The notes under the pieces are model-generated. The model ran no database searches and was not told where the DNA came from. It saw only the letters and a program-made list of their open reading frames with translations. The position numbers were made by a program, and so were the translations under genes. A DNA stretch of 40,979 nucleotides from an uncultured Oscillibacter sp. (GTDB lineage: Bacteria; Bacillota; Clostridia; Oscillospirales; Oscillospiraceae). How positions within the stretch are numbered: position 1 is the first letter of the stretch; every line of letters begins with the position of its first letter. Below are positions 30,214 through 33,169 of the stretch, piece by piece. The stretch is from NCBI GenBank assembly GCA_945868085.1, contig CAMBKF010000017.1, forward strand, positions 1-40,979. The letters are read 5' to 3'.

Positions 30214-30975
30214 ATGAAAAGGATCGTTTCATTTATTCTGTGTGTGCTGATGGCGGCGGCCCTGCTGGCCGGCTGCGGCGATAGAAAGCAGCGCACCACC
30301 TGGATCATCGCCGTAGACGGGGACTTCAGTCCCTTCGTGTACGCCGACGCGGACGGCAAAGCCGCAGGCCTGGATGTGGAGATCCTGGACGCCATCGCCC
30401 GGGATCAGAACTTCCAGTACGAGCTGCGCCCCTCGGACTGGGACACCGCCATGGGTGTGTTCACCTCCCACCAGGCCCAGGTCCTCATGGGCAGCATCGC
30501 CAGCTCCCAGGACCGGATAGACGGCGGATGGTACTTCTCCCAGAGCTTTTATGACGGCGTGACCCAGAGCATGGCCATGGAGCCCAGCAGCGACACCAAC
30601 ACCCTGGCGGACCTGGCCGGCAAGGCCGTGGCCGTGGTCTCCGGCACACTGGGCGCCGCCTACGCCGAGAGCGTGAAGGATGCATACGGCTTTTCCATCG
30701 CCACCTTCAGCGATTCCCCCGCCATGTACGCGGCGGTACTGAAGGGCCAGGCGGCCGCCTGCTTTGAGGATACCCCCGCCCTGCGGGACAGCATCGCCGG
30801 CGGCGTGGCCCTGGAAATGGTTCCCGGCAGCGAGGGCGCAGCCTCCGATTACTGTGTGGCCATCTGCGACGAAAAGGATCAGCCGTTTCTGGAGCTGTTC
30901 AATCAGGGCCTGGCCAACATCCGGGCCAATGGGGTCTACGACGCCATCCTCGCCAGGTACGCGGATAGCCTATAA
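30214..30975 (+). CDS. Amino-acid-binding lipoprotein (solute-binding protein family 3)
   Basis: 253 residues. Lipoprotein signal with lipobox LAGC (Cys21). The mature protein has the periplasmic-binding fold of family 3: FSPFVYADADGKAAGLDVEI (about 37-56) near the ligand site, LADLAGKAVAVVSGTLGAAYA at the domain hinge, and YCVAICDEKDQPFLELFNQGL at the end. Such proteins capture polar amino acids or cystine for an ABC importer. No permease or ATPase gene adjoins it, so it is an orphan here. The next gene set is cysteine synthesis behind a cysteine-sensing leader, so cystine or a related sulfur compound is a fair but untested guess. GGAGG before the ATG. Confidence 0.85.
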   Translation: MKRIVSFILCVLMAAALLAGCGDRKQRTTWIIAVDGDFSPFVYADADGKAAGLDVEILDAIARDQNFQYELRPSDWDTAMGVFTSHQAQVLMGSIASSQDRIDGGWYFSQSFYDGVTQSMAMEPSSDTNTLADLAGKAVAVVSGTLGAAYAESVKDAYGFSIATFSDSPAMYAAVLKGQAAACFEDTPALRDSIAGGVALEMVPGSEGAASDYCVAICDEKDQPFLELFNQGLANIRANGVYDAILARYADSL

Positions 30976-31008: not shown

Positions 31009-31037
31009 TTGCATTTCCCCATGGGATTCCGTATACT
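31009..31037 (+). promoter_or_regulatory. Promoter of the cysteine leader-cysK-cysE operon
   Basis: TTGCAT (31009-31014) and TATACT (31032-31037) with a 17-bp spacer. Transcription should start near 31044, about 26 bases before the leader-peptide ATG. Confidence 0.8.
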
Positions 31038-31069
31038 TTAGGGTGCAATAAGAAAGCAGGAGGACGGAC

Positions 31070-31174
31070 ATGAACCGTTTTGCCATGAACAACTGCGGCA
31101 AGGCCATCTGTATGGCCTGTTGTTGTTGCGCGCATTTTGGTCATGTATGTTCTGCTGGTTCGCCGGAGGATTGA
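31070..31174 (+). CDS. Cysteine-rich leader peptide controlling cysK-cysE
   Basis: A 34-residue ORF with a fine ribosome binding site (AGGAGG, 6 bases before the ATG). Seven residues are Cys: 9, 14, 17, 18, 19, 20 and 27, with four in a row at 31118-31129 (TGT TGT TGT TGC). It lies between a good promoter and an intrinsic terminator, directly ahead of the genes for cysteine synthesis. A run of codons for the operon's own end product is the hallmark of ribosome-mediated attenuation, as in the his, trp or leu leaders. When charged Cys-tRNA is scarce the ribosome would stall in the Cys run, leave 31151-31160 free and let the antiterminator form. The ORF and the RNA pairing are seen directly; the mechanism is inferred. 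Confidence 0.85.
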   Translation: MNRFAMNNCGKAICMACCCCAHFGHVCSAGSPED

Positions 31175-31211
31175 TTTTTCCGGGCACACATTTTGTTCAC
31201 CAACCGGCAGA
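31151..31211 (+). promoter_or_regulatory. Antiterminator pairing of the cysteine leader
   Basis: TCTGCTGGTT (31151-31160, right after the last Cys codon and 11 bases before the stop) pairs over 10 of 10 positions (one G-U) with AACCGGCAGA (31202-31211). The second strand includes the first five bases of the terminator's 5' arm, so the two structures exclude each other. A ribosome that reaches the stop codon at 31172 covers 31151-31160 and favours termination; a ribosome stalled in the Cys run leaves it free. Confidence 0.8.
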
Positions 31212-31244
31212 GGGTGCATGACGCACCCTCTGCTTTTTATTTTT
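31207..31244 (+). terminator. Attenuator terminator before cysK
   Basis: GCAGAGGGTGC (31207-31217) and GCACCCTCTGC (31223-31233) form a perfect 11-bp stem with the loop ATGAC, followed by TTTTTATTTTT. It lies 45 bp before the cysK start and can only serve to stop transcription before the operon. Confidence 0.93.
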
Positions 31245-31288
31245 GGATGCGTCGGCACCTCCTGCCCCACATAGAAAGGAAGATCATT

Positions 31289-32219
31289 GTGAACATTTAT
31301 CGCTCTGCATCCCAACTGGTCGGTCACACACCGCTGCTGCAGCCCGTGCGCTACATGGAGCAGCTCCGGCTGCCCGCCACCGTGCTGGTCAAGCTGGAAT
31401 CCTTCAATCCCGCCGGGTCTGTAAAGGACCGCGTGGCCCTGGAAATGATCGAGACCGCCGAAAAAGAGGGCAAGCTCCTGCCCGGCGGCACCATCGTGGA
31501 GCCCACCTCCGGCAACACCGGCATAGGTCTGGCGGCCATGGGCCTGGCCCGGGGCTACCAAGTCATCCTCACCATGCCCGAATCCATGAGCGTGGAGCGC
31601 CGGCAGCTGCTGGCGGCCTATGGCGCGCGGCTGGTGCTGACCCCCGCCAAGGACGGCATGGCCGGCGCCGTGGAGAAGGCCTGGGAGATCGCCGCCCAGA
31701 CCCCGGGCAGCTTCCTGGCCGGCCAGTTTGATAACCCCGCCAATCCCCGGGCCCATTACCGCACCACCGGCCCCGAGATCTGGCACGATACCGACGGGCA
31801 GGTGGACATCTTCGTGGCCGGCGTAGGCACCGGCGGCACCGTTACAGGCGTGGGCCGCTACCTGAAGGAGAAGAACCCCAACGTGCGGATTGTGGCCGTG
31901 GAGCCCGCCGCCTCCCCCCCTGCTCTCCGGCGGCAAAGCCGGGAGCCACGGCCTCCAGGGCATCGGCGCCAACTTCGTGCCGGAGAACTTTGACCGCAGC
32001 GTGGTGGACGAGGTGATCCCCGTGTGGGAGAAGGACGCCTATGCCGCCGCCCGTCTGCTGGCCGGCACCGAGGGCGTGCTGGCGGGCATCAGCTCCGGCG
32101 CCGCTCTGCACGCCGCGGGCGAACTGGCCCGCCGCCCGGAGAACGCCGGCAAGATCATCGTGGCCCTGCTGCCCGACACCGGCGACCGTTACCTTTCCAC
32201 ACCGCTGTTTCAGGAGTGA
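31289..32219 (+). CDS. cysK: Cysteine synthase (O-acetylserine sulfhydrylase), frameshifted at a C-run
   Basis: Start GTG 31289 with AAAGGAAG ahead. The protein is a PLP enzyme with Lys46 in NPAGSVKDR, the substrate loop PTSGNTGIG and the phosphate loop [10 protein letters not shown]. It makes cysteine from O-acetylserine and sulfide. Through VEPAASP the frame is normal, then a run of seven C (31914-31920) throws it out. With six C it would read [19 protein letters not shown] and continue to the stop at 32219 ([15 protein letters not shown]), giving about 309 residues, the usual length. The similarity on both sides is complete, so an extra C, quite likely a base-calling slip, is the simplest reading. 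If real, the gene is dead. The cysE start lies 3 bp past the stop. Confidence 0.88.
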
Positions 32220-32222
32220 TTT

Positions 32223-33098
32223 ATGATGAGTGAAAGCCATATCTGCGCCGCAGCCAAGGCCATGGCGCAAACCTACAACACAGGCTCCGTGCCGCTGTAC
32301 GGCAAGAAGCTGCGGCTCCCGGACCGGCAGGCCGTGATCCTGCTCATAAAGGACATCCGGCGGCTGATCTTTCCCGCCTACTACGGGGAGGCGGCTCTCA
32401 TGAGCCTGGCCCCGGAGGACTATGCCGCGCTGCTCTTAGAGCGCATCGAAAAGCAGCTTTTCCGGCAGATCGCCCTGACGCTGCCGGAGGAGCAGGAGGA
32501 CCGGGCCGCGGAGCTGGCCACCGAAATGGTGACCCGGCTCCCCAAGATCGCCCAAAAGGTCCAGCTGGACCTGGAGGCCACCTTCGACGGCGATCCCGCC
32601 GCCGGCTCCCGGGAGGAGATCCTGTTCTCCTACCCCGGCCTGTTCGCCATCCTGGTGTACCGGGTGGCCCACGAGCTCTACGACATGAAGATCCCCATTC
32701 TGCCCCGGATGATGACCGAGTACGCCCACAGCCACACGGGCATCGACATCCACCCCGGCGCGCAGATCGGCGACTATTTCTTCATCGACCACGGCACGGG
32801 CATCGTGGTGGGCGAGACCTCGATCATCGGCGATCGGGTGAAGCTCTACCAGGGCGTGACCCTGGGCGCTCTGTCCACCCGGGACGGGCACCACGCCCAG
32901 CTCGGCAAGCGCCACCCCACGGTGGAGGACGATGTGACCATCTACTCCGGCGCGACCATTCTGGGCGGCAACACCGCCATCGGCCGGGGCAGCGTGGTAG
33001 GGGGCAACGCCTTCCTCACCAGCTCCGTGCAGAAGGACACCCGGGTGGTGATCCACGCCCCGGAAACCGTGTTCAAAAGCCGCAAAGGCGAGAAATAA
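32223..33098 (+). CDS. cysE: Serine O-acetyltransferase
   Basis: 291 residues. N-terminal helical domain (about 1-150) and C-terminal left-handed beta-helix of hexapeptide repeats with the active-site region YAHSHTGIDIHPGA, FFIDHGTGIVVGET, KLYQGVTLGAL and KRHPTVEDDVTIYSGATILGG. It makes O-acetylserine from serine and acetyl-CoA, the substrate of the cysK product encoded just before. AGGAG overlaps the end of cysK, so the two are co-translated. It resembles the longer EpsC-like CysE proteins of Clostridia and gut Bacteroidetes. The short C-terminal tail is present, but I cannot judge feedback inhibition. Confidence 0.93.
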   Translation: MMSESHICAAAKAMAQTYNTGSVPLYGKKLRLPDRQAVILLIKDIRRLIFPAYYGEAALMSLAPEDYAALLLERIEKQLFRQIALTLPEEQEDRAAELATEMVTRLPKIAQKVQLDLEATFDGDPAAGSREEILFSYPGLFAILVYRVAHELYDMKIPILPRMMTEYAHSHTGIDIHPGAQIGDYFFIDHGTGIVVGETSIIGDRVKLYQGVTLGALSTRDGHHAQLGKRHPTVEDDVTIYSGATILGGNTAIGRGSVVGGNAFLTSSVQKDTRVVIHAPETVFKSRKGEK

Positions 33099-33116
33099 GC
33101 AGGAAATACGCAGTTT

Positions 33117-33146
33117 AAAGCCCTCGGCCGGTTGGCCGGGGGCTTT
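33117..33146 (+). terminator. Terminator of the cysK-cysE operon
   Basis: AAAGCCCTCGGCC (33117-33129) with GGCCGGGGGCTTT (33134-33146) around GGTT, one mispair or G-T pair, followed by the T-rich TATAGTTATTTTATT. The same hairpin would end the convergent YibE/F gene on the minus strand. Confidence 0.85.
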
Positions 33147-33169
33147 ATAGTTATTTTATTGGGAAGCTT

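Follow-up and report, generated by a model that had tools for sequence, protein, structure and literature searches.

Does a ribosome translating a short, cysteine-rich reading frame decide whether the cysteine genes behind it are transcribed? This question is raised by a locus in a 40,979-nucleotide stretch of DNA from an uncultured Oscillibacter sp., which was analysed as a whole and is called the window here. An initial annotation had proposed a poly-cysteine leader peptide attenuator in front of cysK and cysE. Our analysis supports that interpretation in substance, and we infer the response to cysteine itself from sequence. Observed are the leader ORF with its Cys run, both the terminator and the antiterminator, and the conservation of these elements; from them we conclude that cysK-cysE is very probably under a ribosome-mediated transcription attenuator that depends on cysteinyl-tRNA.

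Layout of the locus

The features of the locus are as follows.

31009..31037, + strand: putative promoter (-35 TTGCAT 31009-31014, 17-nt spacing, -10 TATACT 31032-31037)
31052..31073, + strand: arm 1, candidate protector strand (SD GGAGG 31059-31063 and the leader start region, complementary to arm 2)
31070..31174, + strand: leader peptide ORF (34 codons, seven Cys; no NCBIfam match)
31118..31129, + strand: control codons Cys17-Cys20 (TGT TGT TGT TGC)
31145..31160, + strand: arm 2, the antiterminator 5' strand, within the leader ORF close to its stop codon
31202..31217, + strand: antiterminator 3' strand, of which 31206-31217 doubles as the terminator 5' strand (arm 3)
31206..31244, + strand: intrinsic terminator (12 pairs, 31206-31217 with 31223-31234; T-rich tail 31235-31244)
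31289..32219, + strand: cysK, cysteine synthase (GTG start at 31289; reading frame broken near the C7 run 31914-31920)
32223..33098, + strand: cysE, serine O-acetyltransferase (intact)
33116..33147, + strand: terminator-like site 3' of cysE

The ORF at 31070-31174 encodes MNRFAMNNCGKAICMACCCCAHFGHVCSAGSPED and is preceded by the strong SD GGAGG at 31059-31063. Its 34 codons, the strong ribosome binding site and the seven Cys codons, four of them consecutive, can be read directly in the sequence as first described. The Cys run ends 14 codons before the stop and lies outside the modelled stems. Between the putative promoter and the first gene there is, then, a translated-looking short ORF with SD, start and stop. 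The promoter had been claimed as a whole. Its -10 box is clear and has look-alikes in relatives, as judged by eye; the -35 box is weak (3/6 matches), and a consensus promoter scan detected no promoter at the leader site.

The antiterminator had been placed at 31151-31160 with 31202-31211 as a 10-bp stem. The coordinates are right and the pairing is present, and folding extends it to 15 pairs (31145-31148 and 31150-31160 with 31202-31212 and 31214-31217). The overlapping terminator ahead of the cysteine genes was also found, with 12 pairs by our count and the T-rich tail TTTTATTTTT at 31235-31244. Counting its inner hairpin, the free segment reaches -29.4 kcal/mol, a stability seen in none of 300 shuffles; if one instead counts how many terminator-arm bases are paired, 36 of the 300 reach the value of the window. 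For the leader RNA 31040-31250 as a whole the folding z-score is -5.8.

Downstream, the attenuator adjoins cysteine biosynthesis genes as claimed, cysK from 31289 and then the intact cysE. In relatives cysK is a single open frame of roughly 310-320 codons or more, and the break at 31914-31920 in the window may be a sequencing error or a real change. The gene just upstream (30214-30975) encodes an amino-acid ABC transporter binding lipoprotein, with NCBIfam matches below cut-off that include the cystine type. Between this gene and the leader, no terminator-like site was found on the gene's strand.

The pattern of four consecutive Cys occurs once in the window; shuffled sequences average 0.13 occurrences, with one or more in 12 of 100. 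The Cys run alone is therefore not proof, and the proof is its conservation.

Conservation within the genus

We compared the host genome (1.96 Mb, completeness 84.5%) with 31 companions of the same genus, 32 genomes in all, and read the regions upstream of cysK (best copy per genome) and cysE; several of the genomes are incomplete. A Cys-rich leader stands before cysK-cysE or before cysE alone in 22 of the 32, of which 21 are complete and one (G030) is cut by the contig end with the terminator alone remaining. No leader was seen at the genes read in eight genomes: at cysK and cysE in G002, G004, G008, G010 and G019, at cysK in G007 and G029, which have no cysE match, and at cysE in G013, which has no cysK match. 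G012 (neither cysK nor cysE match) and G017 (partial cysK match only) are outside this tally.

The control codons fit the end product of the operon, as Cys-rich leaders stand ahead of cysK-cysE or cysE. More precisely, the leader is associated with cysE more than with cysK: of the 22 leader loci, 21 have cysE downstream, and none of nine leaderless cysK loci has it within about 1.5 kb. At the 22nd leader locus (G016) the contig stops inside cysK, and in G018 and G011 the leader is directly before cysE. Counting against the attenuator, six genus genomes have a leaderless cysE (G002, G004, G008, G010, G013 and G019).

Alternative stems across leaders

Stem and peptide statistics were computed for the 19 leaders known before the cysE searches. 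The stall model assumes that the front edge of the ribosome lies 14 nt downstream of the A-site codon's first base. When the ribosome is placed at the end of the Cys run, the free RNA of most leaders has the terminator 5' strand paired in the antiterminator; most lose this pairing when the ribosome is placed at the stop codon. Of the 19 leaders, 13 have an antiterminator energy better than 95% of shuffles and six an unexceptional one (G014, G009, G031, G023, G028 and G001); by the number of terminator-arm bases paired, only five of 19 exceed 95% of shuffles. In G028 and G001 there is no convincing antiterminator from the chosen stall site; G023 reads LSRR where its close relative G028 reads CCRR.

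Alignment counts were made on 12 of the 19 leaders, and those omitted have another geometry (G028, G023, G003, G022, G024, G026 and G001). In the plain MAFFT alignment, 87% of the terminator (3:4) cells are paired, a value reached by none of 500 shuffles, with 31-65% when the partners are slid by 1-3 columns. For the antiterminator (2:3) 82% of the cells are paired (34-60% when slid by 1-3 columns); shuffles give 79%, and 19 of 500 are as high. A hand-set register, which leans towards structure, gives 142 of 156 antiterminator and 146 of 156 terminator cells, with two-sided changes at 12/13 and 13/13 positions, respectively. In this register, the arm 2 strands of G020 and G027, the most divergent ones, match their own terminators at 11 and 12 of 13 positions, respectively, and the terminators of the other leaders at 3-9. 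The reverse is weaker, since most other arm 2 strands pair with the G020 terminator at 9-10 positions. When the energies of arm 2 with arm 3 were compared across genomes, no specificity for the matched strands appeared (p = 0.46); many of the terminators share one sequence. Synonymous shuffling indicated tuned codons in four of the 19 leaders and was uninformative in four more, where arm 2 lies past the stop codon.

The checks proposed with the initial annotation, conservation of the Cys-codon run and covariation of the stems in relatives, thus both came out in its favour: leaders are present in 22 of the 32 genus genomes and in a second genus, and most leaders have, beyond the Cys run, a strand that pairs with the 5' side of the terminator, with compensatory changes. 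Folding and comparison indicate that antiterminator and intrinsic terminator exclude each other, G028 and G001 being unclear cases.

A probable third pairing of arm 2

Arm 2 is also complementary to the SD and start region of its own leader (arm 1). The arm 1:arm 2 duplex in the window has -21.1 kcal/mol and is part of the minimum-energy fold. Over 11 lineages, matched arms average -19.3 kcal/mol and mismatched arms -14.3 kcal/mol, and none of 100000 permutations was as good. On the alignment, 69% of the cells are paired (0/500 shuffles; slid partners 37-50%). Two-sided changes occur at seven of 18 pairs, and 66 of 500 shuffles reach seven. Compared with shuffled arm 1, the duplex is exceptional (at most 15 of 300) in only 10 of 19 leaders and is not significant in the window (31/300). 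We consider it likely, though not settled, that arm 2 pairs with the leader's own SD and start as a third state, for which there is good evidence in about half of the leaders.

In the trp layout, the protector strand overlaps the control codons. No such overlap was found in the window, where the candidate arm 1 is the SD/start region. This overlap marks the trp sub-type and not attenuation as such.

Leader peptides and alternative explanations

The 17 distinct peptides, start codons left out, contain 100 Cys (19.8%) and 59 Met (11.7%) among 504 residues, against 1.8% Cys and 2.7% Met in seven neighbouring genes. TGT makes up 60 of the 110 Cys codons in the 19 leaders and four of 34 in the neighbouring genes (Fisher p = 8e-6, a significance inflated by kinship among the leaders). 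Individual peptides include MCMPMCMCMCCC (G014) and one with MMCIMPCCCC (G015). The enrichment in Met does not extend to every lineage, and the leaders of a second genus (g102, below) have no Met beyond the start codon.

The composition bears on two other readings of the ORF. It could be an arrest peptide whose particular sequence, inside the ribosome tunnel, responds to a ligand such as cysteine or cystine, in place of a stall caused by simple Cys-tRNA starvation. A stall in the Cys run would then work the identical RNA switch, and the sequence around the run is partly conserved in close relatives. However, lineages differ in the residues before the run and yet keep their Cys and Met content. 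Codon supply accounts for this better than a fixed nascent chain does, and we regard an arrest peptide as unlikely.

Still less probable is a functional Cys/Met-rich small peptide, metal- or thiol-binding or secreted, that is expressed from the cys operon, with a terminator that merely limits read-through. Its composition, 20% Cys and 12% Met, would suit such a role, and close relatives conserve the peptide including its MNRFAM and GHxFSA ends. Over 13 aligned peptides, however, identity to the window peptide drops to 22%, M1 and M15 are the sole invariant residues, and the lengths range from 23 to 36 aa; neither of the two peptides tested has an NCBIfam match. The antiterminator arm encodes the common GHxFSA tail, which changes together with the pairing in G020 and G027 and is thus largely a coding reflection of arm 2.

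Control could also act mainly at the promoter, through an Rrf2/CymR-type or other repressor, with constant partial read-through of the terminator. By eye, Rrf2-like boxes are frequent at stand-alone cysK genes of the family, and five leaders (L093, L084, L089, L083 and L055) share the upstream element TTGACAGTAGCAATC, so that a second layer of control is possible. As the main explanation this is hardly to be expected, for it leaves the Cys run, the alternative stems and their covariation unexplained. The element TTGACAGTAGCAATC ends about 15 nt before the -10 box, and four of the five leaders add AACATTCCCAAG further upstream. Similar elements precede the leaderless cysE genes of G002 and G013 (L387 and L451). 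The shared element is perhaps an operator for a second control layer.

Control of the operon by a riboswitch (T-box, SAM or other), with an incidental ORF, is scarcely credible: T-boxes are common in all 32 genus genomes (5-15 matches per genome, 14 in the host), but the window has no match to RF00230 or any other Rfam 15 family at gathering scores, and the ORF and stems fill most of the space between promoter and terminator. An Rfam search of the window at a relaxed E-value returned only one microRNA and one snoRNA model, both at chance level.

Leaders in the rest of the family

A leader profile was searched against 400 genomes of the family at E <= 0.01. It gave 11 matches, comprising six of the ten members of the window's genus that were drawn and five others. 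Among these five, the match in G400 is a real leader directly before cysE; the remaining four have neither cysK nor cysE nearby and were rejected as leaders of this kind.

G400 belongs to genus g102, where a leader stands directly before cysE at six of eight loci; G338 has no leader, and in G425 the contig is too short. These are CCCRA leaders with terminators, for example MRRFVCISFADAVCVCCCRAQNSSAFCR in G400. Under a loose tail rule each of the six has a terminator, and each has TTTCTGC as its antiterminator arm downstream of the Cys run. Their terminator strands differ from those of the window's genus, and arm 2 and terminator have changed together (for example, GCTTTCTGCC with GGGAAGC).

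Altogether, 70 upstream regions (30 + 40) were examined among the 87 cysE matches listed for the family. Besides the genus itself, these contain the six g102 leaders and a doubtful Cys leader with a terminator in G157; upstream of 40 other family cysE genes, no further terminator-type leader was seen.

Poly-Cys leaders outside the family

Among 80 named cysK loci, CCC or CCCC leaders were found at four, in an Erysipelotrichaceae MAG (L131), a Lachnospiraceae MAG (L141), Lacrimispora algidixylanolytica (L153) and L. amygdalina (L156). A terminator follows all four by the loose rule and L153 only by the stricter one. L131 has a layout like that of the window, with a 7-bp antiterminator. Another 130 cysK loci drawn from the class include a terminator-type Cys leader at two (L228 and L229). 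L229, in G681 of another clostridial family, has the Met/Cys/Arg-rich leader MNKRLMCRGMCMRMLMCRCSRHKT and a terminator before cysK; no convincing antiterminator was seen there.

The genus of G683 is taken as Lacrimispora because G831 shares the CysK stretch and leader with L153. Its 23 cysK loci comprise 20 with a CCC or CCCC leader, one with SCC and two with none, and the terminator passes the scan at 13 of the 20 leaders. Here the last Cys codon begins arm 1 and the partner strand lies after the stop codon. The arms pair at all eight positions in 15 of the 20, with T-A to C-G swaps, a count that is favoured by the narrow arm 2 search pattern. The protector strand thus overlaps the control codons in Lacrimispora, as in trp, and therefore at least two designs exist.

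A second type of leader was observed separately. It consists of tiny ORFs with RCC, FRC or RC shortly upstream of a stand-alone cysK, such as MSFIWRYRCCRCQ and MNFTAEFRCCCCP, with no terminator detected and in some cases an Rrf2-like box; it was seen at six of 100 loci in one sample. The loci are L276 (the second cysK of the host genome, on contig C59), L269, L271, L273, L316 and L318, and further L058, L066, L072, L094, L096, L098 and L100. This type is possibly another cysteine sensor.

Proposed mechanism

We propose that, when Cys-tRNA is short, the ribosome would stall at codons 17-20 with its leading edge short of arm 2. The free arm 2 would pair with the terminator 5' strand, and RNA polymerase would read into cysK-cysE. 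With sufficient cysteine, the ribosome would reach the stop codon, arm 2 would be covered or passed, and the terminator would form. As the least certain step, arm 2 may pair with the SD and start (arm 1) when the leader is untranslated or has just been translated; this state would favour termination and block further initiation. Judging by composition alone, methionine shortage probably acts in the same way through the Met codons upstream of the Cys run.

A wider reading can be put forward tentatively, and in its entirety we lean slightly against it. The locus might be a three-state sulfur-amino-acid switch, in which Cys and Met codons jointly report the sulfur supply and an unengaged antiterminator strand closes the leader's own ribosome-binding site, so that the leader silences itself; such poly-Cys switches might have arisen or spread several times in Firmicutes, including at least one T-box-rich genus.

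Comparison with known systems

The classical ribosome-mediated attenuators are trp, his and others of Proteobacteria. The present system is like them in its leader ORF, whose control codons match the operon product, its antiterminator set against a terminator, and its intrinsic terminator before the first gene. It differs in having cysteine as the signal and Met codons mixed with Cys, and in that the strand opposing the antiterminator would be the leader's own SD/start, where the classical systems use the control-codon region. If true, masking of the leader's own SD by the antiterminator strand is an unusual wiring for an attenuator.

Cysteine-codon runs in short ORFs ahead of cysteine genes have been described in mycobacteria and further actinobacteria. 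According to the accessible part of PMC1262725, the mycobacterial runs are near the stop codon and have no conserved terminator hairpin. These polycysteine ORFs are called "leaderless" in the title of Canestrari 2020, as cited in PMC13236596 and PMC9094748, and are cited as translation attenuation in PMC13236596. The window leader, in contrast, has an SD and an intrinsic terminator, and its run lies 14 codons before the stop; going by those portions of the sources, it does not belong to the mycobacterial type.

Another comparable system is uORFC-8-2 before cysS in Rhodobacterales, a predicted Cys-codon ribosome-mediated attenuator with a terminator (PMC8632094, in the portion available), as the present one is also predicted to be. 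That system, so far as the portion describes it, is found in Alphaproteobacteria ahead of cysS and has two tandem Cys codons inside a stem, whereas the one reported here is clostridial, precedes cysK-cysE and has four Cys outside the modelled stems, and we do not assign it to the same class.

For Firmicutes, the sections consulted describe RNA control of amino-acid genes as usually by T-boxes and S-boxes, and leader peptides as rare. Two leader-peptide attenuators are nevertheless like ours in occurring in this phylum, the His leader of hisS/hisZ in bacilli (PMC2965389) and the Leu-rich ilv attenuator of Staphylococcus aureus (PMC5794164). Both serve other amino acids in other orders, and no cysteine case is named in the available text; PMC2965389 states in its accessible part that, ermC aside, leader systems had until then been shown only in Proteobacteria and Actinobacteria. 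Within the open-access literature, as far as its accessible text goes and with subscription papers and preprints outside the scope, cysteine attenuators were found for actinobacteria and Rhodobacterales and none for Clostridia.

A clostridial genus rich in T-boxes thus conserves a probable cysteine attenuator, and Lacrimispora has a counterpart of different construction; the question arises of why T-box control is not used here. As the leaders are linked to cysE, whose product performs the entry step of cysteine synthesis, that gene can serve as a marker for finding further switches of this sort. Compared with the systems above, the principle is known; what appears to be new, within the open-access scope, is its use for cysteine in a clostridial lineage, together with the possible arm formed by the leader's own SD and the mixture of Cys and Met codons.
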